The position numbers were made by a program, and so were the translations under genes. From positions 1 through 37,961 of IMG/VR virus record IMGVR_UViG_3300050821_022438: a stretch of 37,961 nucleotides of DNA; one strand, given 5' to 3'. Each line of letters begins with the position of its first letter. Position 1 is the stretch's first letter. This stretch comes from a virus. The notes below the pieces were generated by a model, which worked only from the letters and a program-made list of their open reading frames with translations, ran no database searches and was not told where the DNA came from. Positions 15,127 through 34,533 of the stretch are shown piece after piece.

Positions 15127-17436
15127 ATGGTTAAAAAGATACTTCTGGCAGCGGCGGCGGGAGCCATCATCATCGGCTTTATGGGTGTCATCGCAAACGC
15201 CGCTCCCTATCCACTTCAGGAATACGGCGGCGGCACAGGAACCAATGCGACTTCGACCGCCGGCCAGGTGTTGATCAGTACCGGCTCGTCCACCTACACC
15301 CCCGCCTATCTCGCCTGTAGCGGCGGTTGCACGGTCACGAGCGCCTCGGGAACAGTCACAATCACGGCCGCGAGTTCGAGCGCGCTCATCACCGTCACAA
15401 TCAACGGACAAACCGGCAGCGCGTTCAACGTATTCGGCGACAATGTCAATACCACCTCGACCACGAACGGTTCCACAACCGTCATAAAACTACTCAACTC
15501 GGGCGCAAGCGCGGCAACCTACACCTGCGCCACCGTAACGGTGAACGCGCAAGGTATCGTGACCTCCGCATCGAACGGCTCGTGCAGCGGCGGCGGAGGC
15601 ATCACGTCCATCAACGCCGCAACAAGCAGTGCGCAGACTCTCGTCGCAGGCGCGGGCCTCACGGCCACGACGACCGCGGGATCTTCCAACGCCACGACGA
15701 CCTATACCCTTAACATCGGCACCGGGTGCTCCGGAAACAACTTTGTCCAGACCATATCGGCCACGGGCACGATCACCTGCTCCGTCCCCTCGGGTGGCGC
15801 GAGCTCGACGAACGTCTACGGCGCGAACGGCGTGAACGTGGTGCAGGTAGGGGTGAATGCCACGGCGACCCTTGACACAACCTACGCAGCGATTTGGACT
15901 GCGCTTGAGACATTCAATAAAGGGCTCACCGCGAACGGAACAACGACGCTCGCTTCGACGACGAACGCGATTGCGGTGACCAACGGAAGCGGCACGGTCT
16001 ATGCCTATGCCGGATCGAACGTCTGCGGAGCGGGCAATGCCGCAACGGCAATTTCGGCGACGGGGACGATTACCTGCTCGCCCTTCGTGACGGCCGCCAT
16101 CACTTCCATAAACGGCAACACGACCGCCGCGCAGACTTTTACGGGCGGTGCCGGCATATCGGTCGCGAGCGCGAGCGGGAACACGACCACGACGAATACC
16201 GGCGTGACCTCCTTTACTGGAGCCGGATGCGCGACCGCAGCGAACTCAACGGGCACCGTCACTTTGACCGTGACCTGTATATCGGGCAATCAAAACATCA
16301 CGTTTAAGCTATCGGGCGACGCAACCGGCACGGCGAGCGGCGCGACTTCGATTACCGATACGGTGACGGTGGTCGGATTGAACGGCGTCTCTCTTCCCGC
16401 GAATACGACGGGGACGCTCGAATACGTGAGCGGTGCATGGGTGATCAAACTCGCGACGAGCTCGCTCGGGGTCTACGATGCGAGCGGAAACCTCTCGTCC
16501 TATATCGGCTCGCAATGCGGCGGGGGCCAATACATGACCGGCCTCTCGGCCACAGGAACGGTCGCGTGCGGAACGCCTGCCGGATCGGGGACGCTTTCAA
16601 CGACGACACCGTGGACAGTCGGGAATCTCACTCTCGCGAGCACCTCGAATGCCCTAGCGACTTACGGGGGATCTTCGTGCGGTTCTGGCATCGTGGCGGG
16701 CATATCCGCAAGCGGCACGGCTGCTTGTACGGCAACATCCACACTTCCACAAGGAACCGTGACAACGAGCACGGCGGGCGTTGCGAACGACTACGCGAAG
16801 TGGACTTCAGCTTCGGCGCTCGGCAACGCGAACACGTCCGATATAGGCACGTCAACGTATGTCAATGCCTCGACGACCGAACTCGGCGCGGCAACGACGA
16901 CCGGCCAGCAGCAATTCGAATCTCTCGCATCGACGACCAAGAGCTACGTGGAGTGCGGGCAGAGCGGATTTGCCTGCACCGTTCCCGGATCGCTCGCCTA
17001 TTCCCAGACTTCAACCGGTAACGGCGCGGGCGCGTCCACGACCATCGAGACCTACATCATCCCTTCATCGACTTTACTCACGATCGGGGACGAGTTCGAG
17101 GTGCGCGCGGGAGGCACGATCGCGAACACCGCCTCAACGAACAAAGTCATCCAGCTCAACGTCTCTTCGACCGTCATCTTCCAATCGCCCTCCTCGATAT
17201 TCCCGACGAGCTCAGCTTCCTCATGGTTCCTCGATGCTTATTGCATGGTGCAGTCCACCACCTCATCGCAAACCTGCGCGGGCTACATCGCCGCGGCTTC
17301 CGGCACCTATCCCTTCGACACATCGGTTTCCAGCCTGAACTACGCGACGGGAACAACTCTCACGCTCTACGGCAACGGCACAAACGCCTCGGACACCATC
17401 GCAAACTATTTCCGAGTTCTGTACAACCCATTCTAA
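15127..17436 (+). CDS. Large exported fibre-like protein with cysteine-bounded repeats
   Basis: 769 residues, dominated by Thr, Ser, Gly, Ala and Asn. Residues 1-26 (basic MVKK, hydrophobic AAAAGAIIIGFMGVIA, ANAA) form a clear Sec signal peptide with an AxA site. Four repeats of C-x(2)-G-x(5-7)-[IL]SA[TS]GT-x2-C lie at about C201-C218, C300-C317, C464-C481 and C518-C534, each suited to an internal disulphide. A phrase GDATGTASGATSIT and GTLEYVSGAWVIKL at ~397-441 is typical of phage fibre shafts, and residues ~635-769 form a C-terminal beta-rich head. ANGTTTLASTT (269-279) recalls Patescibacteria surface proteins. Either a virion fibre with a signal peptide or a protein placed on the host surface. 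Confidence 0.7.
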   Translation: MVKKILLAAAAGAIIIGFMGVIANAAPYPLQEYGGGTGTNATSTAGQVLISTGSSTYTPAYLACSGGCTVTSASGTVTITAASSSALITVTINGQTGSAFNVFGDNVNTTSTTNGSTTVIKLLNSGASAATYTCATVTVNAQGIVTSASNGSCSGGGGITSINAATSSAQTLVAGAGLTATTTAGSSNATTTYTLNIGTGCSGNNFVQTISATGTITCSVPSGGASSTNVYGANGVNVVQVGVNATATLDTTYAAIWTALETFNKGLTANGTTTLASTTNAIAVTNGSGTVYAYAGSNVCGAGNAATAISATGTITCSPFVTAAITSINGNTTAAQTFTGGAGISVASASGNTTTTNTGVTSFTGAGCATAANSTGTVTLTVTCISGNQNITFKLSGDATGTASGATSITDTVTVVGLNGVSLPANTTGTLEYVSGAWVIKLATSSLGVYDASGNLSSYIGSQCGGGQYMTGLSATGTVACGTPAGSGTLSTTTPWTVGNLTLASTSNALATYGGSSCGSGIVAGISASGTAACTATSTLPQGTVTTSTAGVANDYAKWTSASALGNANTSDIGTSTYVNASTTELGAATTTGQQQFESLASTTKSYVECGQSGFACTVPGSLAYSQTSTGNGAGASTTIETYIIPSSTLLTIGDEFEVRAGGTIANTASTNKVIQLNVSSTVIFQSPSSIFPTSSASSWFLDAYCMVQSTTSSQTCAGYIAAASGTYPFDTSVSSLNYATGTTLTLYGNGTNASDTIANYFRVLYNPF

Positions 17437-17456
17437 AGGTCAACAAAACAAATCTT

Positions 17457-17888
17457 ATGAATCCATTACAACCATTTCCAAAACCCGCGCAATCCGTAGA
17501 TTCCGTCCAATCGGTACAGAGTGTTCAAGCCCAGACAGTGCAGTACGCTTCCGTCGTCTCGCTTCTTGGCACGCAGGGAACGTATCCCGCAGGGACACTC
17601 TTCAACGACAACGGTGACGGCACGTGCAGCCCGGTGGCAGGTCAGGCGGACAAGTTCGGCGTTGATGTCAATTTCTTCGTAATTTACAACGCCGCGAGCC
17701 CCCTTCCGTTGCCTGGCGCGACATTCTACTCGCTGGACGGCCAGGGCAATGTCATCCAGGTGGCGAACGACGGCACGAGCGAGCCTAAGGCGCTCATCGC
17801 CGCCGGTCTCTTCTGGTTCGACCAGGCATCCGCCCAGGCAGCTCTTACGGCCCTCCTCGCCACACCGAAATCACAAGCATCCAGCTAA
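17457..17888 (+). CDS. Hypothetical structural protein
   Basis: 143 residues from ATG 17457; longer upstream starts would lie inside the previous gene. The N-terminus has a short SVxSVQ repeat (SVDSVQSVQSVQ). The rest is a beta-rich domain (GTYPAGTLFNDNGDGTCSPV, FFVIYNAASPLPLPG) ending in an Ala-rich helix (ASAQAALTALLATP). The leader carries GGTCAACA, a variant of the GGTCGAAA element. Its TAA overlaps the next ATG (TAATGA). Probably part of the appendage cluster. Confidence 0.6.
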   Translation: MNPLQPFPKPAQSVDSVQSVQSVQAQTVQYASVVSLLGTQGTYPAGTLFNDNGDGTCSPVAGQADKFGVDVNFFVIYNAASPLPLPGATFYSLDGQGNVIQVANDGTSEPKALIAAGLFWFDQASAQAALTALLATPKSQASS

Positions 17889-18736
17889 TGAAAAAATACG
17901 GTCATCTCGATAAAATTATCTTGGGAATCGTAGTGGGTTTTTGGGGTTTATTCGTCGCATATCCGCCTATACAAGCCCATGCCGCTATTGTGCTTGTAAG
18001 TACGACGACCATCGCCGAGCAGTCAGGTTCCCAAACGACCGTCAGCTCCAGTTTGTCGAACATCTCCATAAACAATCTTGTGGTCTGCGGATTCCGTGCG
18101 GGATCAAGCGGCAATTTTCCGACGAAAGCAGCTGACACAGGAAGCAGCACATGGGCGGTCGTGGCGACCGATACGACGACAGGGAGCAACGCAATCGCGG
18201 AGTGGTACGCGGTAGTATCCTCGACGACGACCCCTATCGTCATAACGGCAACGTGGAGCGGTGCGGTATCGAACCGCGACATAGAATGCGCCCAGTATTC
18301 AGGAACGGCCACGACGAACGTCTTGGATGTGCACAGCGGAAATACGAGCGGAGGGAGCACGGGAACGCAAGCGACCTCAACCGCCGTAACGACGACGGGT
18401 TCCGATGTTCTTGTGGTCGTAGGTTCCTTCAACGCGGCGAAAGTGGCGACGGCTAATCCGAACTATACGATGGAGGATACGCTCTCGACCGCAGATTCTT
18501 GGTTGCAAGACAGGATTTCCAACAGTATTTTAACGAGCGAGGTAGCTTCTTCGAGTTGGTCGGGAGGTACGAACACCTGGAATGAATTGATGGGAGCGTT
18601 TAAAGCGGCCTCAAGCAACGTGAGCGCCTCGAACGCCACGTCGCAGACGATGACTTCGCTCGGGGCAGGCATAATCCAGGTCGCCGCAAATTCCACCCTG
18701 CAAGTCGCGCAGGGATCGAATCTCTTCGTTCTCTAA
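17888..18736 (+). CDS. Exported Ser/Thr-rich protein
   Basis: 282 residues. A signal peptide spans residues ~1-33 (KIILGIVVGFWGLFVA, then IQAHAA). The mature part is beta-rich (NLVVCGFRAGSSGNF, ITATWSGAVSNRDIECAQYSG, SDVLVVVGSFN) and looks like a secreted carbohydrate-binding or lectin-like fold found in surface proteins. The ~45 C-terminal residues (SSNVSASNATSQ ... LQVAQGSNLFVL) are low-complexity. Overlaps the previous gene by one base pair set, so co-translated with the fibre cluster. Confidence 0.65.
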   Translation: MKKYGHLDKIILGIVVGFWGLFVAYPPIQAHAAIVLVSTTTIAEQSGSQTTVSSSLSNISINNLVVCGFRAGSSGNFPTKAADTGSSTWAVVATDTTTGSNAIAEWYAVVSSTTTPIVITATWSGAVSNRDIECAQYSGTATTNVLDVHSGNTSGGSTGTQATSTAVTTTGSDVLVVVGSFNAAKVATANPNYTMEDTLSTADSWLQDRISNSILTSEVASSSWSGGTNTWNELMGAFKAASSNVSASNATSQTMTSLGAGIIQVAANSTLQVAQGSNLFVL

Positions 18737-18737
18737 A

Positions 18738-18908
18738 ATGTACGGTTTCTCCGGATACGCGACTAATCCTTACGCGACAAAACGCTACACGAGCGCGGGC
18801 GCTCCTCCCGGCCCGATCGTCCAGCTCGCGATGACCTTCTGGCAAAACACCTACGGCATCGCGAATATGTGGTGGCTTCGATTCAAAAATACAACGCTTG
18901 AACTATGA
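18738..18908 (+). CDS. 56-residue small protein in the fibre cluster
   Basis: ATG at 18738 directly after the previous TAA; product begins MYGFSGYATNPYATKRYTS and ends FKNTTLEL. It is aromatic-rich with a middle helix (IVQLAMTFWQNTYGIANMWW). The TGA overlaps the ATG of the next gene (ATGA), which supports it as a real coupled gene. Unknown function; small proteins of this type often accompany appendage genes. Confidence 0.6.
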   Translation: MYGFSGYATNPYATKRYTSAGAPPGPIVQLAMTFWQNTYGIANMWWLRFKNTTLEL

Positions 18909-19243
18909 TCCCCTCCCCTATAAAAGTCGTGCAGAACGACTACGGCTATCAAATCCCTTTCACGCTTGAAGACGGCAACGGCAATCCCGTTTCGCTGAGC
19001 GGGGCAACGCTCGTCCTCAAGGTGCAATCCGCGCAAGACCCTTCAGACACTCTCGTTTTTCAGAACGGCATGACGATTGACAACGCCTCCGCGGGAACGT
19101 GCCACTATACGGTTGGTTCGAGCGATTTCCCCACGCCGGGCACGCTTCTCGTATCGATCGTCGCCACATACTCGACCGAGGTCCTGAGTTGGTCGGGGGC
19201 CCAGATCATTGTCATTCCCGCGCTGCCCCAATCCATGAACTAG
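18905..19243 (+). CDS. BppU-N-like Ig-fold appendage protein
   Basis: 112 residues with the pattern of the baseplate upper protein (BppU) N-terminal domain: IKVVQNDYGYQIPFTLEDGNG, PVSLSGATLVLKVQ, TIDNASAGTCHYTV and a final strand. In lactococcal phages this domain links receptor-binding proteins to the baseplate. Here it is a free-standing Ig-like protein in a cluster of fibre proteins, so it may anchor one of them to the virion. ATGA overlap with the previous gene. Confidence 0.65.
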   Translation: MIPSPIKVVQNDYGYQIPFTLEDGNGNPVSLSGATLVLKVQSAQDPSDTLVFQNGMTIDNASAGTCHYTVGSSDFPTPGTLLVSIVATYSTEVLSWSGAQIIVIPALPQSMN

Positions 19244-19244
19244 G

Positions 19245-19280
19245 TTATCCACAAGATCTCAAAAATCCGTTTGCTACAGT
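19245..19280 (+). promoter_or_regulatory. Late-type promoter motif, copy A (before 19287)
   Basis: TTATCCACA (19245-19253), 18 nt, then TGC-TACAGT (TGC 19272-19274, -10 at 19275-19280). An A5 tract lies in the spacer. The start codon begins 7 nt after the -10, so transcription may begin at or next to the ATG (leaderless). Copies B and C share the CACA-N18-TGCTANAGT spacing exactly. Confidence 0.6.
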
Positions 19281-19286
19281 TAAAGC

Positions 19287-19847
19287 ATGAATAAAAATTA
19301 TCTCATTGTGGCGGGTGCGGTCGTCGTAGCGTTGGTCGCAGCGGTCGTCGTATTCCATTCCTCGCCGCAACTTGCGGGGGATTTTGCGGGCGGCATCCAG
19401 CCGGGCCCGCTCTTCACGTGCAATGTCAGCACGAATAGCTGCACGCCGAACCTTTCGAATCTCTACGTGAACGGCGCGACGAGCGTAGGCGGAACCATCC
19501 CGAACAACCAGATAACGGTGCTCTACACTGCAACGACATCCTATCCGGCAGTCGCCCTTACCCTTGGGAGCATTTCCGCGACCACATCGACGACCAGCAC
19601 GAACATCGGCATTCCCGTAGCGGGATTCAGCGTCGGCGACCCTTGCAGCGCCATCTCATACAACGGCGCTTCCTCTTCAGCACTCATCAGCTACGATGGC
19701 AACATCACCGCGGCCGGCACGAACAACGCCACCGCGACGATACTCTTCATGAACGTCGGTACGTCGACCACAACGTTCACCGTCACGAGCACGGCGACCG
19801 GAGTAAGCAGCACGCTCAAAGCCACTTGCATCCACACGGGCGTATAA
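19287..19847 (+). CDS. Membrane-anchored exported protein, paralogue 1
   Basis: 186 residues. A single hydrophobic anchor covers residues ~5-23 (LIVAGAVVVALVAAVVVF), followed by the motif PQLAGDFAGGI shared with the 19865 gene. The exported part is Thr/Ser-rich and beta-like, with four or more cysteines (FTCNVSTNSC, GDPCSAIS, KATCIHTG). It is the first gene after late-type promoter copy A and has no Shine-Dalgarno site. Topology suggests an N-in, C-out envelope protein or a virion protein with a hydrophobic N-terminus. Confidence 0.65.
   Translation: MNKNYLIVAGAVVVALVAAVVVFHSSPQLAGDFAGGIQPGPLFTCNVSTNSCTPNLSNLYVNGATSVGGTIPNNQITVLYTATTSYPAVALTLGSISATTSTTSTNIGIPVAGFSVGDPCSAISYNGASSSALISYDGNITAAGTNNATATILFMNVGTSTTTFTVTSTATGVSSTLKATCIHTGV
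19377..19396 (+). repeat. 20-bp exact direct repeat, copy 1
   Basis: GGGGATTTTGCGGGCGGCAT, encoding the GDFAGGI region; the second copy is at 19955-19974 in the next gene. It marks the two genes as tandem duplicates. Confidence 0.85.
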
Positions 19848-19864
19848 AACGAAATACCTGAGCC

Positions 19865-20467
19865 ATGAACAAACTCGACACACTCCTTGCTGCAGCGGTC
19901 GGTGCGATCGTCGTGGCCGCCGTTCTCTTGGTCGTACTTCATCCGCAACTCGGCGGGGATTTTGCGGGCGGCATTGCACCGAATAATCTCTGGACCGCAA
20001 ACACGCTCTCCGCAAGCGTCTCTCCGGTCTCCGGAACGCCGAACATAATCACTTCCGGCAACGGCATTTTCAACGATGTTATCCAGGCGGACGCGGGATT
20101 CTCGCAGGTCGTGAATGCCTCGACCACCCTTACGCCGGGACAATTTTGCGGTACGACTTCGGTACACATCACGAACACGACCGCGGCGATCACGCTAACG
20201 CTCCCCGCCGCGACGACCACGTATGTCGCGTGTGGCTCGCCCGCACCCGGCGCTTACTCACAAGAGCTCCTCGTGAATGACTCCACGAACACCGTCACCG
20301 TCGCCGCGGGCACGGGCATGACGCTCATGAACCAGACGCAAGGCCCCGGCACCACAACCATTGCTGGCGTGATCAACACGATCCCTGCAACCTCAACCGA
20401 GCTCGTCACAGGGATCTGGGCCAGTTCGAGCAGCTTCTATGTCATGAACGGTGACATCTTCCACTAA
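19865..20467 (+). CDS. Membrane-anchored exported protein, paralogue 2
   Basis: 200 residues. Same plan as the preceding gene: anchor at ~8-26 (LLAAAVGAIVVAAVLLVVL), then PQLGGDFAGGI, followed by an unrelated-looking beta-rich exterior (ITSGNGIFNDVIQADAGF ... ITLTLPAATTTYVAC). The exterior reads like a phage fibre tip domain (NTVTVAAGTGMTLMNQ, TSTELVTGIWASSSSFYVM). Conserved anchor with divergent exteriors suggests the anchor is the shared function and the outside domain has been swapped. Confidence 0.65.
   Translation: MNKLDTLLAAAVGAIVVAAVLLVVLHPQLGGDFAGGIAPNNLWTANTLSASVSPVSGTPNIITSGNGIFNDVIQADAGFSQVVNASTTLTPGQFCGTTSVHITNTTAAITLTLPAATTTYVACGSPAPGAYSQELLVNDSTNTVTVAAGTGMTLMNQTQGPGTTTIAGVINTIPATSTELVTGIWASSSSFYVMNGDIFH
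19955..19974 (+). repeat. 20-bp exact direct repeat, copy 2
   Basis: Second copy of the repeat at 19377-19396, in the equivalent position just after the anchor-coding region. Confidence 0.85.
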
Positions 20468-20500
20468 TCTTGGTCGCCGCTTTTTACAAGCACAAGGATT

Positions 20501-20653
20501 ATGGAAACACTCTATAAAACTGAACTCGGTACGTGGGAGGTATCTCGTTGGGAGAACGGCCAAATTTCCTTTACCGCTGAAGATGGCCACACGTACACGA
20601 AATTCAGCGACGGTTCCATAGCTCATATGTTCTGCCACTGCTTCCACCAATAA
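20501..20653 (+). CDS. 50-residue small protein
   Basis: ATG 20501 to TAA 20653, product METLYKTELGTWEVSRWENG ... MFCHCFHQ. Short beta pattern and a terminal FCHCFH that could bind metal. AAGGA lies just before the start. It fills the space between the anchored paralogue and the protease gene. Unknown function. Confidence 0.5.
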   Translation: METLYKTELGTWEVSRWENGQISFTAEDGHTYTKFSDGSIAHMFCHCFHQ

Positions 20654-20660
20654 CCTCCCC

Positions 20661-22097
20661 ATGATCGACACCCTCAAAAAATTCTCTGCCGATCTCCTCG
20701 CCGATTTCAAAACATCCCAGGAAAAGCAGAAGACCGACGCCATACTTTCGAAAATAAAAGCCGCTGATACCGGGACATTTTCAGTCGTCATTTCAACCTC
20801 CGACGAAGACCGCCAGGGCGACTCGCTCGACCAGTCCAAATGGAAACTCGACAACTACGAGGCCAATCCCGTCGTGTTGTGGGCCCACGATTATTACGCT
20901 CCGCCGATTGGCGTCTGCACTGGCATCTCGGTCAAAGACGGCAAGCTCGTCGCCGAGGGCAAATTTGCATCAGAAGACCTCAATCCCTTCGCTGCGCAGA
21001 TCGCCGCGATGTATGAAGCAGGTTTCATCAAAGCCACCTCCGTAGGCTACGTCCAGCACGAAGACGGCCAGCTCGAACTTTTGGAATTCAGTTTCTGCCC
21101 CGTCCCCGCCAACCCGTACGCCCTTTCCTTGCGCGAGATGAAAAAGCTCCGCCTCGATATGCCCCAGCTTGTGATGAAAGGGCTTCGGTTCGAGACCAAA
21201 GCGGAACAGGCGGGCGACCGCTGCGAGCAGGACGACGGCACGTTGGGAATCCTGGCCGAAGATCCGCAGAATCCCGGCCAGCTCGTCTGTGTCCCCGCCA
21301 AATCCGACAAATCGAATGAGAATGACGGCGATATGAACAACGAACTCATGAAAAGCTTAAAAGCAGAACACTCCCGCCACGGCGAGGCGGTGATGAAAGC
21401 GATTGACGAATTCAAAGGCATTGACGAATTCAAGTCCGCGCTCGGAAGCGAGAACGACTCCCATCTCGAAAAGTGCATGAAAGCCATTGACGACTCGTAC
21501 GAAACGATGGGGCGCACGCCGAACAAAACCATCGACGAATTCAAAGCGGCGTTTCACGCCGAGCATGAAAAGCATGTTAAGTGCTTCGGGAAGGCCATCC
21601 AGGAATTCAAGACCATTGACGAATTTGAAAAAACCGCGTCCGAAGAACTGCCGCGCCATGAAAAAGCCCATATGGACTTGTGTGAAAAAGAAATGCGCGA
21701 AGGCGAGGACGAAGAAGAGAAGACCATCAAAGAGATTGTCGCCAAAGTGGGACGACAGATTTCCTCGAAGAACAAGGAAAAGATTCTGGCCGCCGTTAAG
21801 TCTCTCGAAGACGGCCATGCGGAGCACGGAAAAGCAATTCAAAATGTAATCGCGGCCCTGAAGGAACTTGTTTCCCAGGGTGACGAGGGGGAGGAAAAAC
21901 CGAAAACGGTTTCCCCGAACACAAGGTCGAGGCCTGCAGGAGCGGCAATCAACAAGGACGCGAAGGAAGGACAAATGTCCGACTTCGAAGTGTTCATGTT
22001 CACCCGTAGTCTCCTGAAGGAGGTCGCATCTGTGACATCCGACAGCCTCGCCCGGCTCAAAACTGAGTTTCGCGTGAAGTTTCCGGACCGCAGATAG
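20661..22097 (+). CDS. Prohead protease fused to scaffold-like domain
   Basis: 478 residues. Residues ~35-160 match the HK97-type prohead serine protease: NPVVLWAHDYYAPPIG with H76, KATSVGYV with S127, and ELLEFSFCPVPANPYA. Residues ~225-400 are charged helix with a recurring HxxxxxKAIDEFK-type unit (four or so copies of IDEFK), typical of an internal scaffold. The C-terminus (SDFEVFMFTRSLLKEV...) may contact the capsid protein. The scaffold part guides capsid assembly and is removed by the protease during maturation. It lies directly upstream of the capsid gene. Confidence 0.9.
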   Translation: MIDTLKKFSADLLADFKTSQEKQKTDAILSKIKAADTGTFSVVISTSDEDRQGDSLDQSKWKLDNYEANPVVLWAHDYYAPPIGVCTGISVKDGKLVAEGKFASEDLNPFAAQIAAMYEAGFIKATSVGYVQHEDGQLELLEFSFCPVPANPYALSLREMKKLRLDMPQLVMKGLRFETKAEQAGDRCEQDDGTLGILAEDPQNPGQLVCVPAKSDKSNENDGDMNNELMKSLKAEHSRHGEAVMKAIDEFKGIDEFKSALGSENDSHLEKCMKAIDDSYETMGRTPNKTIDEFKAAFHAEHEKHVKCFGKAIQEFKTIDEFEKTASEELPRHEKAHMDLCEKEMREGEDEEEKTIKEIVAKVGRQISSKNKEKILAAVKSLEDGHAEHGKAIQNVIAALKELVSQGDEGEEKPKTVSPNTRSRPAGAAINKDAKEGQMSDFEVFMFTRSLLKEVASVTSDSLARLKTEFRVKFPDRR

Positions 22098-22119
22098 ACC
22101 ACCACTCAAATCCAAATAA

Positions 22120-23385
22120 ATGGATCAAAAAACTATCGACACGATAGTTAAATCAGTTAGCGACTCGAACATAAAGACGCTCAACGACTTCATGGAGAAA
22201 GACCTTCTCCCGAAGGTTGACGAGCACTCGGCGAAGACCGCAAAGCAGATCGTCGACCGGATGTTGGCGGAACGGTACGTCCGTGGCCGCGACATCACGG
22301 GCCTCGACGACGAAGCCAAGAAGTCTTTCGCCAAGCAGGTGCAGGCCGTCTTCCGCGGCAACCGCGCAGGCGCGTTGCTCGTGAAAGAATTCGATGGCCT
22401 CAGCACAAAGGCCAACGAAGCGCTCATCGAAGAGCAGGACAACCGTGGCGGATACTTGGTTGAACCCGAGGTCGCCTCGGCCATCCTCCGCATCGCGGCT
22501 TCCGTCGGGACGATCATGCGGCAGTGCCAGCAATGGCCCATGCGCACCGATGAACTCGGCATCCCGAACTACACGGGCTCGTTCCTTACGGGCTCCTATG
22601 TCGGCGTCGACCTTCCCGGCACCGTGACCGGTTTGACCTTTGGTCAGGCCGTCCTCATCGCGCGCAAGTGGCAGCTCGCCTTCACCGTTGGCAACGACCT
22701 TTTGGCCGATGCCTCGGTTCAGTTGGCGGATTGGCTCTTGGCGATGGCCGGTGAAGCATTGGCGAACATGATCGACCAGCAAGGATTCATCGGCGGGACG
22801 GTAACCACCGCTCCGGGTCCTTTCGTCGGCATCATGAATCTGACGGGCGTGAACACGTACATCCTCGGCAATTCGAGCACCTCGGGTTCCACCACGTACG
22901 CAAAGTTCAACCCCGTGACGGACACCGCGAACATTGTCGCCACACTCGAAGAATCGATCTTGGACGGCGCTGCATTCTATATGCACCGCACCGTCTGGGC
23001 TTCGGTTCGCTCAGCGTTGGCGTCAACGTCCGGTTTGCCGTTCCTGTTCCTTTCCGGAGCAGATAGCGAGCTCGCACACGATGCGCTCGGCGGCCCCATC
23101 AAGCCGGCCGGTTCCATGGGCGGCTTCCCGGTTTTCACAAACCGGTGGCTCCCTGCGACGACCGCTTCATCGCAGACGAACACCCCGTTCGCCATCTTCG
23201 GGAACATGAAAGCAGCCGCCTTTGGCGACAAGGGCGACATGCGGGTTGCGCAGTTCGATTCCGGCAGCTTCGGCGGCAAAGAGATCGCTCTCGCCGACCA
23301 GCACGGCATCGTCTACCGCCACCGCCACGCCTTCGTGGTCGTGCTTCCGAAAGCGTTCACCGTCGTGTACACCTCGTCTTCCTAG
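22120..23385 (+). CDS. Major capsid protein, HK97 fold
   Basis: 421 residues. An N-terminal helical delta-like segment (~1-105) ends near NEALIEEQDNRGGYLVEPEV, the typical junction. The HK97 core follows: SAILRIAASVGTIMRQCQQW, GIPNYTG, LIARKWQLAFTVGNDLLADA, GEALANMIDQQGFIGG, and the C-terminal VAQFDSGSFGGKEIALADQHGIVYRHRHAFVVV. It is the shell subunit, cleaved at the delta domain by the protease upstream. A 12-bp hairpin follows the gene, possibly stabilising this abundant message. Confidence 0.93.
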   Translation: MDQKTIDTIVKSVSDSNIKTLNDFMEKDLLPKVDEHSAKTAKQIVDRMLAERYVRGRDITGLDDEAKKSFAKQVQAVFRGNRAGALLVKEFDGLSTKANEALIEEQDNRGGYLVEPEVASAILRIAASVGTIMRQCQQWPMRTDELGIPNYTGSFLTGSYVGVDLPGTVTGLTFGQAVLIARKWQLAFTVGNDLLADASVQLADWLLAMAGEALANMIDQQGFIGGTVTTAPGPFVGIMNLTGVNTYILGNSSTSGSTTYAKFNPVTDTANIVATLEESILDGAAFYMHRTVWASVRSALASTSGLPFLFLSGADSELAHDALGGPIKPAGSMGGFPVFTNRWLPATTASSQTNTPFAIFGNMKAAAFGDKGDMRVAQFDSGSFGGKEIALADQHGIVYRHRHAFVVVLPKAFTVVYTSSS

Positions 23386-23402
23386 TCTTTTTCAATCGTA
23401 CG

Positions 23403-23434: not shown

Positions 23435-23460
23435 TAAACGAACAAATAAACCGCCCGTCG

Positions 23461-23492: not shown

Positions 23493-23542
23493 CGTCCCTT
23501 CCGATTAAAGTCGATGGAAGGCAGGGGCCAACAAATCAAGCA

Positions 23543-26363: not shown

Positions 26364-27367
26364 TGGCAGCAAAAGGAATCGGGCGATTATTCGCCCTCGG
26401 ACTGGCAAAAGAATCCACACGCGGCACCGCAATCTCGGCAGCCACCTATTGGCTTCCCTTTGATGATCTGAGTTTCGACGAGAAATTCGACAACGCCGTC
26501 GCAGATCAAGCCGTTGGTGTTGTGGAAAATTCCATCAACGAATACCGGGTCAAGAACTACGCCGACGGCTCATTCAAAGTCCCCATGATGGACCAGAGTA
26601 CCGGCCTTTTATTCTTGTCACTGCTCGGTTCCCAGGCAGTCGCTACCCATTCCGGCGAATCCGTAGTCTATGACCACACCTTCACCGTTGGCGAAACGGC
26701 GCAGCACTCTTCGCTTACCATGTTCATCCACGATCCTCTTTCCGGCACCGACTACTCCCACGCGAACGGCGTTATCCATAAGATGGAGATCGCCGCGGAA
26801 CTGAAAAAGTTCGTCCAACTCTCGTGTTCCGCCCGCGCATTCAAAGGCGTATCCCAGTCCACCTTCACGCCGTCCATTCTTTCCGAGAACCGTTTCATCC
26901 CCCAGTACATGACGTTCAAGTACGCAACGGCGATTGCAGGATTGGGAGCGGCGTCGGCGATTGCGCTTAAATCCATCAAGCTCACCGTTGACGAGTCCAT
27001 CGAAGACCAAGAGGTATTGGGCAACGTCGCGCCCGCGGACTTCCTCAACAAAGAGTTCAAGGTGGAAGGCCAGCTCGAATGCATTTACCAGAACCTGACC
27101 GACTTCAAGAATGTTGCTCTCGCGACGCCGAACGTCGGACAGGCGATGCTCATTGACCTCATCAACACCGATGTTACCCTCGGCAGTGCCACGCATCCTG
27201 AGCTGAAAATTACCCTCAACCAGGTTTTCTTCACCGAATTTTCTAGACCGATAAAAGTAAAGGATCTCGTTTATCAAAATTTGAAATTCCGTGGTTCTTA
27301 TAAGTTAGCTGACAGCGCCATGATCACGGCAGTCTTGACAAACACGGTTAGTGGAACTTACGCATAA
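26363..27367 (+). CDS. Major tail (tube) protein
   Basis: 334 residues. The opening IGRLFALGLAKESTRGTAIS and ATYWLPFDDLSF..., the middle YDHTFTVGETAQHSSLTMFI, and repeated FKVPM / FKVEGQLEC strands are characteristic of siphovirus tail tube proteins. It polymerises into the tube around the tape measure. Length is on the long side for a tube protein and the two halves look similar in layout. It is followed by the chaperone G/GT pair and the tape measure, the standard order. Confidence 0.85.
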   Translation: MAAKGIGRLFALGLAKESTRGTAISAATYWLPFDDLSFDEKFDNAVADQAVGVVENSINEYRVKNYADGSFKVPMMDQSTGLLFLSLLGSQAVATHSGESVVYDHTFTVGETAQHSSLTMFIHDPLSGTDYSHANGVIHKMEIAAELKKFVQLSCSARAFKGVSQSTFTPSILSENRFIPQYMTFKYATAIAGLGAASAIALKSIKLTVDESIEDQEVLGNVAPADFLNKEFKVEGQLECIYQNLTDFKNVALATPNVGQAMLIDLINTDVTLGSATHPELKITLNQVFFTEFSRPIKVKDLVYQNLKFRGSYKLADSAMITAVLTNTVSGTYA

Positions 27368-27396
27368 GGTCGAAACAAATCACTATCACTATCACT
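27368..27396 (+). promoter_or_regulatory. GGTCGAAA element (copy 2) and (ATCACT)x3 leader
   Basis: GGTCGAAA at 27368-27375 directly follows the tail tube TAA. Three ATCACT units at 27379-27396 run into the ATG. There is no Shine-Dalgarno site. The hexamer repeat could be slippage-prone and alter spacing. Confidence 0.55.
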
Positions 27397-27690
27397 ATGA
27401 CCGAACGAAAAACTAAAACAGTAACCGCCCCCTCCGGCGTCGTCGTTGAACTCAAAGAATACATTTCCGCAGGAGAGTTCCTCGACGCGACCGAAAGCAA
27501 AGATGGCAATGATCTACCGAAGCAGCAGCTCGCTAAGAAGCTCGTGGAGACAGCCGTCGTTTCCTTGAACGGCTCGCGCGAGAACATCTCGACCGCTATC
27601 CGCGACCTTCCGCTTGCCGACTATCTTTTCTTGAGCAAAGAAGTGGCCAAGCTCACGAGCGGGGATTTTACCGAGGCGAAGAATCAATAG
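27397..27690 (+). CDS. Tail assembly chaperone, short form (gpG-like)
   Basis: 97 residues, with an acidic/basic start (TERKTKTVTAPSG) and helical remainder ending TSGDFTEAKNQ. Size and position between tail tube and tape measure match the G protein of the G/GT frameshift pair that binds the tape measure during tail assembly. A second frame (-1) overlaps its end and continues to 27881. Confidence 0.8.
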   Translation: MTERKTKTVTAPSGVVVELKEYISAGEFLDATESKDGNDLPKQQLAKKLVETAVVSLNGSRENISTAIRDLPLADYLFLSKEVAKLTSGDFTEAKNQ

Positions 27691-27881
27691 AAAGTCTCTG
27701 GCACCGGTTCTTCGCCCTCGGCCGCGCTTCCCTCTGGCCAGAAATGAAGGCCGCCGTTTTGTGCCGAGAAATGAAATGGACGTGGCAGGAATACCGCGAA
27801 CAGCCGCAATGGTTCGTCACCATGATTCTTTCTATGCTCCAAAATGAGGCTGAGGAGATCAAGAGCAAACAGAAGCTGTAA
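27669..27881 (+). CDS. Tail assembly chaperone T extension (-1 frame)
   Basis: The -1 frame relative to the G gene is open through its end and encodes YRGEESIESLWHRFFALGRAS ... WTWQEYREQPQWF ... LQNEAEEIKSKQKL, ending TAA 27881. Its Trp-rich content is what T domains look like. It lacks a start near its beginning (first ATG 27744), so a fused GT product by ribosomal slippage is expected. The best slip point I see is GAT-TTT-ACC at 27664-27672, where Phe can re-pair one base back. It is not a canonical heptamer, so the exact site is uncertain. Confidence 0.7.
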   Translation, partial: YRGEESIESLWHRFFALGRASLWPEMKAAVLCREMKWTWQEYREQPQWFVTMILSMLQNEAEEIKSKQKL

Positions 27882-27928
27882 ACTTGCGCATATTTTGATT
27901 GCGTTGCATTGTTAAAGTACCGCCAAAA

Positions 27929-27936
27929 GGTCGAAA
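27929..27936 (+). promoter_or_regulatory. GGTCGAAA leader element (copy 3)
   Basis: Exact copy, 26 nt from its first base to ATG 27955. A TTGCATTGTTAAAG sequence just upstream (27904-27917) resembles the -10 part of the late motif but is weak. Confidence 0.45.
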
Positions 27937-27954
27937 ACCAATCATTTAAACACC

Positions 27955-28134
27955 ATGAAAACACGCGACGAGATAACGGCCACTGCCAAGAAGCTTCAGG
28001 ATACCTTCACTGGCTTTGGTTCAACTTCCGCGGTTGGTCGTACTGAGATGAAAATGATTGCGCTTCAGGTCGAACTTTTGCTCGATATCCGAGACGCGAT
28101 CCTCAACCCAGGAGGCGACGGCACAAAGAAATAA
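27955..28134 (+). CDS. 59-residue helical protein before the tape measure
   Basis: ATG 27955 to TAA 28134, product MKTRDEITATAKKLQDTFTG ... VELLLDIRDAILNPGGDGTKK. Predominantly helical. It lies 12 nt upstream of the tape measure gene. Small helical proteins here may take part in tail initiation; no family recognised. Confidence 0.6.
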   Translation: MKTRDEITATAKKLQDTFTGFGSTSAVGRTEMKMIALQVELLLDIRDAILNPGGDGTKK

Positions 28135-28146
28135 TCTCCATAAAAG

Positions 28147-29955
28147 ATGGCCGACTCAGAATCGAACCTCGAAATAGTCATCTCCGCCATCGACGAGGCG
28201 TCGGCCCAACTCGATGAAGTAAGCGAATCCCTCTCCGGGCTTTCTGAATCTGCAAGCGAAGCCGGTGCGACGACGAGCGAGGCGCTCGATTCTGTTTCGG
28301 CAGCAGCCACCGCGACTACGGGAACAATTCAAACCGCAAATCAAGCCCAAGCCGATTCCTTTGCGATGGCCGCCGAAATAGCCACGCAAAGCGACCAGGA
28401 GATCATCGATACGATGCTGGAGTTCGGCGTTAATGCGCAGACCGCCGCCAACATCGTTGCCCAATCGAACGAAGAAATTGCGGAATCATCTGAGGCTACC
28501 GCGTCAACATCAACCGGCAGTTACACGTCAATAGGCGTGGCTGCCGGTTTGGCGTTCTACGCACTTGAAAGTGCTGTGAGTAATGCCGTCTCCTCGGCCC
28601 AACAATGGGACGAGACATCCGCTGTCATTTCCCAAGAACTCAAAAATATCGGCTCTTCGATTCCTCTTTCTCAGGTCCAGGCGTACGCGCAACAGGTCCA
28701 GGCGACCACCCTCTTCAGCCAACAACAAGCACTTTCGGCAGAAGCGGTGGTGTTAGGATTTTCAAACCTCGCGCCCCACTATCAGGAAATCACTGCCCTC
28801 TCCGCCGATCTTGCAACCAAAATCCAACAGTTCACCGGCTCAGCGACCGCGGATATGCCGTCTGCGATGAAGATAATCACGAACGCTCTCAATGACCCGG
28901 TCGCGGGAATAAACCAGCTTATCCGGCAGGCGGGCGTAGACCTTCCGGCCGCGACGGTGACGATGATCGAGAATCTTGCGAAAGCAGGGGATACGTCCGG
29001 CGCGGACGCCGTGATTCTTCAGGCCCTCAACCAACAGGTAAGCGGACTCGCACAATCCGCCGCCAACGCCGAAGGTGGCCCTCTAACCCAGCTCGAAAAT
29101 CAACTCGCCGCTACGGGCATGACCATCGGTAATATTCTCCTTCCCCTTCTCGACCAGATGGCAAAGGACATGGAGCCGATCATCGCTGCCATCACTGAGT
29201 GGGCGACCGAACATCCACAACTTACCGCTGCAATTATCGCCGGAACGGTTGCATTCTTCGGCTTTCTCACAGCTCTGACCTTGGTGGGAATAATCGTCGC
29301 CGCAGTAGGTGCGACTGTTGGCGCTGCGATGTTGGGCATCGCCGCGGTCATCGCGGTCGTGGCCGCGCTTGTCATTTCAAACTGGAACTCTCTATGGAGC
29401 ATCACCGAAACCGTCTGGAATGTAATCTCGTTCTTCTTCACCGCGTTTTGGAACGGCTTGAAGATTCTTTTTACGGACCAGCTCGACGAGGTCAAGGAGT
29501 CTTGGCAATCCACCTGGACTGATATGAGCACGATCGTCCAAAACATCTGGGCAACAATACAAAGCATAGTGAAAACCGGCGTGAACGACGTGATCTCCGC
29601 CATCAACGGCTTCATCAACGCACTCGACTCGCTCCACATCACGCTTCCATCGATCGGCATCCCAGGGACCAAGCTCGCGACGCCCGCCATCAATCTCGGT
29701 TTCAACATCCCCGACATCCCGATGCTTGCCGAGGGAGGATTCGTCACGCAGCCTACGCTCGCCATCATCGGGGAATCCGGCCCCGAGGCGGTTATTCCTC
29801 TTTCCGCCGGCGGAGGCATGGGCGGAGGCCAACAAATCAACGTTTATATCCAAGGAGGTATTTTTCCCGCCGACGCTTCGTCAATCAAACAAATCGGTGA
29901 CATGCTGGCGAAACAGATTTTGCAGACCGTCCGCGTTAGAAATTATCAGCCATAG
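28147..29955 (+). CDS. Tape measure protein
   Basis: 602 residues, short for the family, predicting a short tail. The N-terminal ~120 residues are Ser/Ala/Glu-rich helix (IDEASAQLDEVSESLSGLSE). Residues ~361-410 are strongly hydrophobic (AAIIAGTVAFFGFLTALTLV onward), the membrane-active part used in DNA entry. The C-terminus has LAEGGFVTQPTLAIIGESGP followed by EAVIPL, a hallmark of tape measure C-termini. It sets tail length and helps the genome pass the host membrane. Confidence 0.93.
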   Translation: MADSESNLEIVISAIDEASAQLDEVSESLSGLSESASEAGATTSEALDSVSAAATATTGTIQTANQAQADSFAMAAEIATQSDQEIIDTMLEFGVNAQTAANIVAQSNEEIAESSEATASTSTGSYTSIGVAAGLAFYALESAVSNAVSSAQQWDETSAVISQELKNIGSSIPLSQVQAYAQQVQATTLFSQQQALSAEAVVLGFSNLAPHYQEITALSADLATKIQQFTGSATADMPSAMKIITNALNDPVAGINQLIRQAGVDLPAATVTMIENLAKAGDTSGADAVILQALNQQVSGLAQSAANAEGGPLTQLENQLAATGMTIGNILLPLLDQMAKDMEPIIAAITEWATEHPQLTAAIIAGTVAFFGFLTALTLVGIIVAAVGATVGAAMLGIAAVIAVVAALVISNWNSLWSITETVWNVISFFFTAFWNGLKILFTDQLDEVKESWQSTWTDMSTIVQNIWATIQSIVKTGVNDVISAINGFINALDSLHITLPSIGIPGTKLATPAINLGFNIPDIPMLAEGGFVTQPTLAIIGESGPEAVIPLSAGGGMGGGQQINVYIQGGIFPADASSIKQIGDMLAKQILQTVRVRNYQP

Positions 29956-29957
29956 TC

Positions 29958-31481
29958 ATGGCCACGCCCGTATATATTTTGGACAACGGCACCGATATCT
30001 CTTCCATTGTCGATTGGAAGAGCGTGGACGCGGTAAACGTCCTAACGAAAGAGACCGGAACGTTTTCCTTTTCCATCCTTCAGAACGCCGCCACGAATCT
30101 CACGATTCCCAAGATCGGCGACACGATAGAGCTGTTCGATTCAAGCGGGATAGTGTGGGGCGGAACGCTGACCGAACAAGAGCCCATCATCGCCGGGCTC
30201 ATGATCACCTGGCAGTTCACCTGCCAAGATTGGGGATTTTTGCTCGACGGAACTTTGGTAAAAAAGAATTATTCCGGCGTAGACCCTTCGGCCATTGCCA
30301 TCGATATCGTGAATACGTTCGCGGCCGGCAAGGGAATCAGTGCGGCGACCGTCGCGGATGGCGGATTTGTGCAGTTCGGCAACTTCAGCGTCCCTAGCAT
30401 CCAATTTAATTATCAGCAACCTTCGAAAGCCTTGCAGTCACTTGCGAAATTGATCGGCTGGGACTGGTACATCGACGCGAACAAAAATCTCCATTTTTTC
30501 TTAGGGGACATAGACGACGGTGAGGGAGGAGGGGCGGTAGGCGACGGCGGCGCGGCCCCCATACAGATCGACGCTCTCGGCGGCAAGAGTGGCGCGGATA
30601 TTTTCTGGAATTCCCTTGATATCGATCTTCAGATAACCAACATGCAGAATCGCGTGTTCGTGCAAGGCGGCACGTACTTAAAAATATTCACGGCGCTCAA
30701 CACCGTGGACTCCTATATGACAGACGGCGTCCAGCAATCCTTCCCCACGTCCTACGCGTATTCCGAAAGCACCATCTCCGTCACGCTGAACGGCGTGCCG
30801 CAGACTGTCGGGATATTAAACCAGGTCACCGACCCGTTGGATTTCAATGTCCTCTACAGCACGACCGACAGGAACATCCAATTTACCGCGGGCGCTCCCG
30901 CTTCCGGCAAAACCGTCCTGATCTTCGGCAACGCCCAAGTCCCCATCATCGCAAGCGCAAGCGACGCCGCGAGTATCGCTGCCTACGGCGTGCGCGAAGG
31001 GGTGATCAACGACGCGAAAATAACGACCGTGCCCGAGGCGTTTCTAAGAGCCCAGGCCCAAATCCTCCAGTTCGGCCATCCGGTCTACGATCTCAAAGTG
31101 ACAACCCTTGTTCCCGGATGCCGCATTGGGCAAGTAATCATCGCGAACATTCCCTCAATGGGCATCACGAACTACGCCCTCATCATCAAGCGTGTGGAAG
31201 CAACGGTCTTCGTTCCGGGCGCGAATGCCCTCCTCCAATACCAGCTTGAATGCATCGGCTCGGACAACGTCACCTTCACAGATCTCATGACGCTCCTCTT
31301 GCAACAGGAAGCCGTGCAGACGGACAACAGCCCGAATACCGTTACCGAGAACCTTGAGGTCATAAGTGAGGAAATTCTTACGGTTGAATCCCTGCTCGCC
31401 CCCGTTGCTACTTCCATGCCCTATGAACTGGGCGTCGCCGCAACAAACCAATTCCGCATGGGCTTCTCCCGCCTCTCGTAA
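29958..31481 (+). CDS. Baseplate hub / tail-associated protein
   Basis: 507 residues. Starts MATPVYILDNGTDISSIVDW, with FSFSILQNAATNLTIPKIGD, VWGGTLTEQEP and SLAKLIGWDWYIDANKNLHF, a pattern of phage hub (gp27/Tal-type) proteins. A Gly/Asp-rich loop (DIDDGEGGGAVGDGG) interrupts the middle. No peptidase motif is seen. Position directly after the tape measure supports a distal tail or hub role. Confidence 0.75.
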   Translation: MATPVYILDNGTDISSIVDWKSVDAVNVLTKETGTFSFSILQNAATNLTIPKIGDTIELFDSSGIVWGGTLTEQEPIIAGLMITWQFTCQDWGFLLDGTLVKKNYSGVDPSAIAIDIVNTFAAGKGISAATVADGGFVQFGNFSVPSIQFNYQQPSKALQSLAKLIGWDWYIDANKNLHFFLGDIDDGEGGGAVGDGGAAPIQIDALGGKSGADIFWNSLDIDLQITNMQNRVFVQGGTYLKIFTALNTVDSYMTDGVQQSFPTSYAYSESTISVTLNGVPQTVGILNQVTDPLDFNVLYSTTDRNIQFTAGAPASGKTVLIFGNAQVPIIASASDAASIAAYGVREGVINDAKITTVPEAFLRAQAQILQFGHPVYDLKVTTLVPGCRIGQVIIANIPSMGITNYALIIKRVEATVFVPGANALLQYQLECIGSDNVTFTDLMTLLLQQEAVQTDNSPNTVTENLEVISEEILTVESLLAPVATSMPYELGVAATNQFRMGFSRLS

Positions 31482-31514
31482 TACACAGGACTCTTAAAAA
31501 CCATTTGCTAGAGT
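31479..31514 (+). promoter_or_regulatory. Late-type promoter motif, copy C (before 31528)
   Basis: TAATACACA (31479-31487), 18 nt with an A5 tract, then TGC-TAGAGT (-10 at 31509-31514). ATG lies 14 nt after the -10. The 5' end of the motif overlaps the stop of the hub gene. Confidence 0.6.
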
Positions 31515-31527
31515 AAATAAAGTACCG

Positions 31528-32118
31528 ATGCGAAGAAAAATTAAAGAAAAAGGAGGCATACAAGGCACCGTCATTGTCCGCTCCCATCCGGCCGGCACTA
31601 TTAAGCGCTATCACGAGCTCAAGAAAACCGACCTTCCCGCCGCTCAGAGGCTACTCAAAGAAGGCAGGGTTTACGTCGTCCAGAAAAACATGATCGTCTG
31701 GTCGGCGAGCTGCGGCTACGACATCCTTGTCCAATTTCTTCTCTCGGCCTATACCGGTAGTTTCGCCTTCCCCCTGGGGATAAGCTGGGGAGAGATCGGC
31801 ACGGGGCTCACTGCGCCCGCGAACACGGATCTTGCACTCACCACTCCCACCGCGCGGGCGACCGTGAGCTACGCGGCCGACAGCGCTTTCAGCATTGCCC
31901 AGCTACAGTTTTTCTTCCCCGACGTTACGCTCCCCAACCAGACCTATACAGAGTTCGGGACATTTATCGGGGGTACGTCATCCATCGGCACGGGCAATAT
32001 GTTCAACCACGCGCTTTTTATCAATCCCTACTCAAAATCATCAGGAACGGACACTACGGTCGAGGTGGACTTCGCCTTCGGCGCGGACAGCGGGTTCGAC
32101 GATTCGGGTTTCTCATAA
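31528..32118 (+). CDS. Tail/fibre-associated structural protein
   Basis: 196 residues. The first ~60 residues are basic and helical (MRRKIKEKGGIQGTVIVRSH, HELKKTDLPAAQRLLKEGR). The C-terminal ~130 are beta-rich (WGEIGTGLTAPANTDLALTT ... TYTEFGTFIGGTSSIGTG), resembling small phage appendage proteins that carry fibres. First gene behind promoter copy C, so it probably heads the receptor-binding unit. Confidence 0.65.
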   Translation: MRRKIKEKGGIQGTVIVRSHPAGTIKRYHELKKTDLPAAQRLLKEGRVYVVQKNMIVWSASCGYDILVQFLLSAYTGSFAFPLGISWGEIGTGLTAPANTDLALTTPTARATVSYAADSAFSIAQLQFFFPDVTLPNQTYTEFGTFIGGTSSIGTGNMFNHALFINPYSKSSGTDTTVEVDFAFGADSGFDDSGFS

Positions 32119-32130
32119 ATAAAATCAACA

Positions 32131-34533
32131 ATGAAAAAATTATCTCTCTTCCTTCTCGCATTCCTCTTTTTCTTCGGCGCGAAATCTCTCTCCGCTTCCG
32201 CCGCCTGCACGCCGATTTCTTCCACGTATCCAGGTTCCCTCGATACCTTCGTCGCAAACGACTGCATCCCTTCCTCATGGGCAAACCAGCTTGAACAGAA
32301 ACTCGGCATCACGAGCTCCTCCGTCACTTCCTCGCTCGACTATCAGATCAACAATCTCTTCACTTCCTACGGAAGCGAGATCGTGAAAGCCACCTCCACC
32401 ACAGGACTTTTGCAGACGCTCAACAATCTTTCTGACCTTACCAATCTCGTCTCTGCGCGAGCCAACCTCGGCCTCGGCTCAGCGGCCACGCACCCTTTCA
32501 GCGATTTCTTGCCATCCAGCACCCCCTATTCCACCGTTTCTACCTCATCCGCCAATTCTTGGACCCAGCTCCAAACTTTAAATAATGGATTGACGGTCAA
32601 CGGCACAACGACGCTTGCTTCGACCACGAGCGCGCTCGTCGAAGCGACCTCAACAGGGCAGGTCATTCCTTATCCCGGGAGCACGTGCAGCGCGGGGACT
32701 GCCTATACAGGTCTTTCCGCGACCGGCACGCCTGTCTGCACGGCCTTCGGCTCTTCCAATGTCTCTACTTCGAGCGCGAATACATGGTCGCAGGTGCAAA
32801 GCACAAACGGAGTGTCGAACACCGGAAACGCGACCTCGACGAGTATCGAGGTTACGGGGACTTCGACGGCATCCTTCGTCGCGAATGCCAATATGCGCTT
32901 TCAAGTTCCCCCGCAGGCGACGCTGACCGCGTTTGGATTCACCGACGTGACGCAATATATGGCGAACATCTACGCCGCCTATAACGGCGTCGTAAGTTCT
33001 ACTGAGTTCGATTTCGGCGCGGGTAACTGGCCGGACGTGACTACGACGACATTCAATTTCTTGGGCGATCGCGTTTACATTACGGGAGTTCCCGGAGGCG
33101 GATCTCGTATTACTTACACGCCGACAAGCACGGGCGCGATATGGACGATCAACAACGGTTCAGGATCAACGGGTGGACAGCACACCTCGGCGCAAGGCGT
33201 GAATGCTATGTATTTCCAATGTTCGGACGGTTCGAGCACTGCGCTTCTTGTTGGCGGCACTCTCGGCGCGGAAGGTACGAGCATCACGAACAACACATTC
33301 AATCACTGCCCCGTCCCGATCGAGAGTGCCGGGAACACGTGGGAGCTTACGATCGACCATAACTTCTTCAGCAGTTATGCCACCGGGACCGTGTTCGATT
33401 CTTCGAACAACTCGGGCGAAATGCCGCGCGTTACGAACAACGACTATCACGACAACACGAACTCTACGACCACGAACGGTTTTGTGATGCAGACGGCTTC
33501 CACGATCGGCGCTACCGTCTGCTGGAATAGCTTTGACGACACGGGGGTAAATTACGGCGCAGGCAACGTCGGCATCAAGTCCTGCAACTACTTTGAGAAT
33601 CCGGGGTGGGCAACATACGGCTCTTATCCATTCCTCAAGATCGGTGCGAACTCGACCGTCGTGAGCCAAGATACGTTCGGCAACGATGCCTCGACCACGG
33701 GAAACTTCCCGCCCGAGGACATTTCCAACGCGGGTACTTTGATTGATGCGGGCATAACAACCGTTGCGAACGGCACGGCGACAACGACTCCGGCCCTTAT
33801 CGTGGACACGGGTGCTGGCACTACTGCAGGCATCGGCGTCATCAACGTTCCGAACAGTTCTGGCGGCAACGCAGTTTCCTCAACGATAGGATCTTCTGTA
33901 TTCAATGCGCTCACCTTCTGGATCGAACCAGCCTATGGCACGAGCACTCCAGATCTGGCTCTGGGGACTCAGGGAACCGTAAATTCCTCTACGTTTATGA
34001 CTTTCGACGGCAACCGTGTTCAAATCGGCTATGACCCCTCGACGATTGATGGGACCACTGGACAGCTAGCCCTCTTCGGTGGCGGCTCAAAAGGTATCGA
34101 AATCTGTGTTAACGGCACTGCAAATCTAGTATGTGGACAAAATGCTATCTACATCAGCGGGACTGCAAACACAGGTGTCGGCGTCGCTGCGGTAGGAATT
34201 AATACCCAAAACCCTTCCTCAACGCTCGATGTCAATGGTTCATTTGGAGAAAAAGTCACAACGAGTGCCGTGTCGTCCACGATGACCGCTCTCGCTTCCA
34301 CTTGGATTTATACGGGGACCACTGCTGGCACATTTACGCTTACGAATTGCACTTCAACTCCTAACCGGCAGTACCTGACGTTCGATGATTCCTCTTCGAC
34401 CCTCACCATTGCGGCAACGAGCACGAATTTCATATGGCCCAATGTCGGTGGAGCGACTTCAACCTCGGTTTCGGTCACTACTTCCACTCCTTCTTTCTTC
34501 GTTTGTGACGGTACAAACTGGCACCAGAAATAA
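32131..34533 (+). CDS. Exported fibre/receptor-binding-like protein with beta-helix
   Basis: 800 residues. Residues 1-25 (MKK, then LFLLAFLFFFGAKSLSASAA) form a clear Sec signal peptide. Residues ~100-250 are shaft-like, with NGLTVNGTTTLASTT and one C186-C203 ISA/LSATGT module identical in plan to those in the 15127 protein. Residues ~265-545 contain NNTFNHC, IDHNFFSS, NNDYHD and WNSFDD turns, a right-handed parallel beta-helix pattern common in polysaccharide-binding or -cutting tailspikes. VGINTQNPSSTLDVNG (688-703) is a common fibre motif near the tip. Likely host recognition; why a virion protein should have a signal peptide is unexplained. Confidence 0.75.
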   Translation: MKKLSLFLLAFLFFFGAKSLSASAACTPISSTYPGSLDTFVANDCIPSSWANQLEQKLGITSSSVTSSLDYQINNLFTSYGSEIVKATSTTGLLQTLNNLSDLTNLVSARANLGLGSAATHPFSDFLPSSTPYSTVSTSSANSWTQLQTLNNGLTVNGTTTLASTTSALVEATSTGQVIPYPGSTCSAGTAYTGLSATGTPVCTAFGSSNVSTSSANTWSQVQSTNGVSNTGNATSTSIEVTGTSTASFVANANMRFQVPPQATLTAFGFTDVTQYMANIYAAYNGVVSSTEFDFGAGNWPDVTTTTFNFLGDRVYITGVPGGGSRITYTPTSTGAIWTINNGSGSTGGQHTSAQGVNAMYFQCSDGSSTALLVGGTLGAEGTSITNNTFNHCPVPIESAGNTWELTIDHNFFSSYATGTVFDSSNNSGEMPRVTNNDYHDNTNSTTTNGFVMQTASTIGATVCWNSFDDTGVNYGAGNVGIKSCNYFENPGWATYGSYPFLKIGANSTVVSQDTFGNDASTTGNFPPEDISNAGTLIDAGITTVANGTATTTPALIVDTGAGTTAGIGVINVPNSSGGNAVSSTIGSSVFNALTFWIEPAYGTSTPDLALGTQGTVNSSTFMTFDGNRVQIGYDPSTIDGTTGQLALFGGGSKGIEICVNGTANLVCGQNAIYISGTANTGVGVAAVGINTQNPSSTLDVNGSFGEKVTTSAVSSTMTALASTWIYTGTTAGTFTLTNCTSTPNRQYLTFDDSSSTLTIAATSTNFIWPNVGGATSTSVSVTTSTPSFFVCDGTNWHQK

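Follow-up and report, generated by a model that had tools for sequence, protein, structure and literature searches.

Tail-fibre-like proteins of a soil tailed phage family are probably exported and locked by disulfides

Genes of the window and the fibre cassette

In this work we have analysed a virus record of 37,961 bases, the whole of which we call the window; its genes and proteins are named by their start positions and lie on the + strand unless stated otherwise. The window belongs to an HK97-type long-tailed phage and encodes a terminase (9792), a portal protein with a C-terminal minor-head domain (12236..14557), a head maturation protease and a major head protein with PHROG matches (20661 and 22120, together 20661..23385), connectors, a tape measure protein (28147) and tail genes. 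Viral contigs and a phage collection, searched with the single sequences of the fibre-like proteins 15127 and 32131, gave no match, and the relatives discussed here, 58 contigs, were collected through the portal protein.

Between the portal and protease genes, in the window as in most relatives, a recurrent cassette lies within the virion gene block. Its order is a member of the 14565 family, a fibre of the 15127 type (called an exported fibre below on the strength of its predicted signal peptide), often a second secreted protein, members of the 18905 and 19287 families, and then the protease. The 14565 protein (14565..15125, 186 residues, no signal peptide) resembles the N-terminal part by which tail fibres are anchored on virions: 16 of the 23 members of its family match PHROG tail fibre families, its profile matches the phage tail fibre chain 8jov_1 (E 0.0077), and a signal was found in 0 of 34 members. 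In nearly all relatives a gene of this type stands immediately before that of the exported fibre, and in several of them the two overlap. The exported fibre itself (FIB15.1, 15127..17436) has 769 residues. It is followed by 17888 (17888..18736), a predicted exported protein of 282 residues with two cysteines in its mature part; this has no family match and is a smaller secreted protein rather than a clear fibre, and relatives carry signal-bearing proteins at the same place. The next protein, 18905 (18905..19243), is BppU_N- or Ig-like, is not exported and has one invariant unpaired cysteine. Pfam BppU_N is matched by 12 of the 22 members of its family (best E 7.5e-9), and the window's own member scores 19.5, below the cut-off of 23.1. 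BppU is a baseplate protein of lactococcal siphophages; the match of the family to it covers the N-terminal domain only, and the fibre beside 18905 is exported. Two membrane-anchored proteins of a GGDFxGG family complete the cassette, 19287 (19287..19847), with a helix at residues 3-25 followed by a beta domain, and 19865 (19865..20467), with an N-terminal membrane segment. A model of 19287 (pLDDT 68) gave no significant structural match, the best E values being 0.05 among viral structures and 0.66 in the PDB.

The second exported fibre, 32131 (FIB32.1, 32131..34533, 800 residues), has a central beta-helix-like region and stands in the tail block. Two relatives have a protein of its type in the corresponding position, flanked by the 31528 and 34511 families, with a signal and a conserved mature N-terminus SxWxNxLE; these two have no 15127-type fibre in the cassette, whereas the window has both types. 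The adjoining 34511 (34511..35989) is an ordinary, non-exported distal tail fibre candidate and served as an internal contrast. Of the relatives in which the tail block was read, nearly all have a member of its family and the others have another signal-less fibre there.

Both exported proteins have the character of phage fibres. The 15127 protein contains a GGTGT...GQVLI module that is present also in unrelated, signal-less phage fibres. The 32131 protein contains VGINTQNPSSTLDVNGS, weakly matches PHROG tail fibre 2282 (E 4e-4) and is similar over residues 273-564 to a beta-helix-like fibre (27 percent, E 6e-12); its structure predicted from a 3-sequence alignment reached a pLDDT of 36.7, too low to use. 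Ordinary tail fibres and tailspikes share with the exported fibres the GGTGT...GQxLIGN module, the beta-helix-like region and the VGINTxNP...LDVNG motif, but they have neither the signal peptides nor the cysteine pairs that are conserved in the exported fibres. We also considered whether the C-terminal knobs of 15127 and 34511 are one domain with and without disulfides, and rejected this, since neither a BLASTP comparison, one range of which may have been out of frame, nor a search in the proper frame gave similarity. Neither 15127 nor 32131 showed a Pfam family, a recognised outer-membrane or wall anchor, or a secretion domain for display at the outer membrane.

Where the cassette of a relative lacks an exported fibre, there is one in the tail block or a signal-less fibre instead, and signal-less fibres occur at the same or the tail position where the exported fibre is absent. 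One relative, L029, joins the anchor domain to a beta-helix-like region that has homology to exported fibres, 32131 included. This gene (L029 12332-15271) is a naturally occurring fusion of both cassette proteins: it encodes in one frame the anchor and apparently tandem beta-helix-like regions, has no signal and is followed by a signal-bearing fibre. In three distant relatives (L038 11688-15287, L047 6398-8074 and L055 11465-15064) long signal-less proteins with ETxxLADxIxR-like repeats replace the exported fibre. Small proteins with a CAYCG-type motif, HNH-endonuclease-like by eye, lie between the portal and anchor genes in L008 (12344), L009 (6083), L025 (12179) and L114 (4770).

Three further genes of the window were recorded. 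A lipoprotein-like gene on the minus strand (11232-11729; LSCSSTNSKDLSRG) lies between terminase and portal, has a close relative at the same place in L125 (7077-7577 of the reverse complement) and is a candidate lysogenic-conversion or exclusion gene. The product of 4220-4816, also on the minus strand, contains several cysteines and begins with a strong signal or membrane segment. Past the tail genes, 36436-37374 encodes a protein conserved in most relatives, where it starts LGAxERPKDxRDxLLG, and for which no Pfam or PHROG match was found.

Signal peptides

The proteins 15127, 17888 and 32131 begin with MVKKILLAAAAGAIIIGFMGVIANA, MKKYGHLDKIILGIVVGFWGLFVAYPPIQAHA and MKKLSLFLLAFLFFFGAKSLSASA, followed by APYP, AIVL and ACTP, respectively, and each of these N-termini is a Sec signal peptide of the textbook type. 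The predicted cuts are ANA/APYP after residue 25 in 15127 (signal 15127..15201) and ASA/ACTP after residue 24 in 32131 (signal 32131..32202); in 17888 the signal takes up residues 1-32. The signals of the two fibres are not artefacts of start-site choice, since in-frame stops lie five codons upstream in 15127 and four in 32131 and neither has a credible alternative start: codons 2-60 of 32131 contain no ATG, GTG or TTG, and 15127 has a single internal ATG near its start, at codon 19. That all three proteins start with a standard signal peptide had been proposed in a sequence-only reading of this DNA, and this stands. The signal prediction suggested there as a check was made with a home-made rule, not SignalP, and with gene starts in relatives placed mechanically; the three N-termini pass it, as against 3 of 545 orthologous control proteins of the same phages (a total summed from a table).

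The rule was positive in every 15127-type fibre, given the correct start codon. A signal peptide was present at all 35 loci found, which include L028 and L030, where the automatic start was too far upstream, and L045 of a distant clade; some come from near-identical phages, so that the 35 cannot be taken as independent of one another. The three 32131-type fibres, that of the window and those of two relatives, all have a signal. As is typical of substrates of Sec signal peptidase I, the signals have a positive n-region, an uncharged hydrophobic core and small residues at -3 and -1. The net charge is +2 in most, position -1 is alanine in all 29 and position -3 is A, V, S or T. Among the 15127-type signals the hydrophobic core has a mean pairwise identity of 17 percent, against 45 percent in the adjoining mature N-terminus, which is conserved as A-A/P-Y/F-P-x-x-x-GGTGT; charge, hydropathy and the A-x-A site thus persist while the core drifts. 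A lipobox-like site is seen in L003 and L117 only, within the core of a longer signal. By these predictions 15127, 32131 and several of their neighbours carry conserved Sec signals of the cleavable type.

Pairing of cysteines

The 18 cysteines of 15127 fall into nine local pairs and the 12 of 32131 are likewise paired, whereas 34511, the ordinary fibre, and the tape measure protein have none. Lysine and arginine together make up only about 1 percent of mature 15127. In the mature exported fibres the number ranges from 2 to 30 and is even in 29 of 29 complete proteins, the L003 fibre being cut at its A-x-A site (it would be odd with the lipobox cut). The parity of related fibres is not wholly independent, though the counts vary so widely; after clustering at 70 percent identity the number is even in 27/27 clusters (p 7e-9 if clusters are independent). 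Control proteins have an even number in 157 of 406 cases, and in 84 of 156 among those with four or more cysteines. Spacing follows the same pattern: the median distance in exported fibres is 17 residues within pairs against 98 between them (p 1e-59), compared with 31 and 46 in controls with six or more cysteines. Unrelated phage fibres that share the GGTGT module but lack a signal contain 0-3 cysteines. Raw cysteine content was dropped as evidence because the signal-less fusion fibre of L029 has 18 cysteines without pairing. In the 19287 family cysteines outside the membrane segment are even in number in 22 of 22 members.

Even cysteine numbers are favoured in extra-cytoplasmic bacterial proteins (PMC7678975), and local, even pairing points to oxidative folding outside the cytoplasm. 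The pairing in the mature fibres therefore suggests that the signal is used and is not an idle anchor. On these sequence grounds we consider export together with disulfide formation very probable.

Host of the clade

One relative, L061, is a prophage; the 232-kb contig into which it is integrated comes from an Acidobacterium metagenome-assembled genome, which we take to belong to the order Terriglobales (Acidobacteriota). This relative shows 82 percent identity in the terminase and 62-65 percent in the portal. The phage region has a tyrosine integrase at one end and is lower in G+C (about 54-59 percent) than most of the flanking DNA (62-64 percent); the flanking genes on both sides reach 71-83 percent identity to other genomes of the same order. 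Among 298 genomes of this order the portal family was found only in the known prophage. The genome that bears the prophage encodes DsbA and VKOR, an oxidation machinery. Integration into a chromosome of this order speaks for a diderm acidobacterial host of the clade, and the window's phage may by extension have a similar host. The earlier suggestion of a Patescibacteria host does not agree with this: the sole host-linked relative is the Terriglobales prophage, and nothing that was tested points to Patescibacteria.

Discussion

The signals and the paired cysteines together make it almost certain that the fibres leave the cytoplasm through Sec and undergo oxidative folding outside it, in a diderm host of the Acidobacteriota type. 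What could a tailed phage gain from this? Tailed-phage fibres are assumed to be synthesised and attached within the cytoplasm, and the sequence-only reading had considered that the signal might serve as an anchor for virion assembly. That the N-terminal segment is a hydrophobic tether, inserted into a virion part or held in the inner membrane until assembly, would suit virion proteins, normally made in the cytoplasm, and the 19287 family of the same cassette does have an N-terminal membrane segment without an obvious conserved cut; however, a tether needs neither a conserved A-x-A site beside a drifting core nor strict cysteine pairing confined to the mature part and expected only after export, and we regard this reading as very improbable.

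We favour, tentatively and at close to an even chance, the hypothesis that 15127 and 32131 are receptor-binding fibres which would be sent out through Sec and would trimerise and oxidise in the periplasm. Lysis of the cell would free them, and they would then dock onto virions through anchors made in the cytoplasm, such as 14565. The gain from export may be disulfide-stapled fibres suited to acidic, protease-rich soil or peat. A role in the virion is suggested by the place of the cassette in the virion block, where the 15127 gene recurs between portal and protease beside the anchor-like 14565 and near the BppU_N-like 18905, by the matches of these two families, by the fusion in L029 and by the relatives that lack the exported fibre and have a signal-less one at that place or in the tail position. 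Against docking, virions in the cytoplasm cannot meet periplasmic proteins before lysis, and we know of no tailed phage that assembles a Sec-exported fibre. We found no paper on Sec-exported fibres in tailed phages, and a survey reports that the variable (DGR) target proteins of phages lack signal peptides (PMC6199706).

The main rival is that the fibres act as exported decoys or adhesins. They may never join virions and be held in the periplasm or at the outer membrane of the infected cell, a serious possibility to which we give somewhat less credence. Their role could then be to mask the phage's own receptor, which would exclude superinfection or protect progeny from binding to debris, or they could be adhesins of lysogens. 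Export is well supported, the 19287 family of the same cassette is membrane-anchored, and relatives also carry a signal-less distal fibre in the tail block, which means that receptor binding need not be the task of the exported fibres. There are also precedents. Lambda Lom, encoded between tail genes in a phage of a diderm host, is exported, but it is an outer-membrane barrel and not a fibre (PMC12309495). PblB of streptococcal prophages is, like the exported fibres, a tail-type protein; a signal peptide is predicted for it in a pneumococcal prophage, and it has a role as an adhesin (PMC4508584), but its host is Gram-positive, no cassette or cysteine pairing is described for it, and we liken it to the fibres by description, not homology. 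Display on the cell surface remains putative, as no recognised anchor or secretion domain for the outer membrane accompanies the fibres. Their gene place inside the virion block, their pairing with a virion-anchor-like and a BppU_N-like protein and the signal-less fibres found in their stead at these positions also speak against a role apart from the virion. It is improbable that they are morons, secreted proteins of host origin that the phage has picked up and that have no part in infection. The 17888 protein and its counterparts do resemble ordinary small secreted bacterial proteins, but both fibres are built of phage fibre modules, and the 15127 family was found in no other of the 298 genomes of the host order.

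Returning to docking, assembly outside the cytoplasm has a parallel in filamentous phages, whose coat and adsorption proteins are exported through Sec, the adsorption protein with disulfides. Filamentous virions are assembled at the membrane, whereas the window belongs to an HK97-type tailed phage, and no homology is claimed. It is possible, though we would put it a little below the docking of the window's own fibres, that virion assembly in the tailed phages of Acidobacteriota ends outside the cytoplasm, with exported, disulfide-stapled fibres docking via a separate anchor at lysis.

This family of soil tailed phages thus has tail-fibre-like proteins that are probably exported and disulfide-locked, which is not known for the fibres of tailed phages. 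Annotation will probably mistake signal-bearing fibre proteins of this kind for bacterial surface proteins. The export signals and paired cysteines found across the clade would mean either that a tailed virion is partly assembled outside the cytoplasm or that the fibres are tools of infection that act in the periplasm or at the cell surface.
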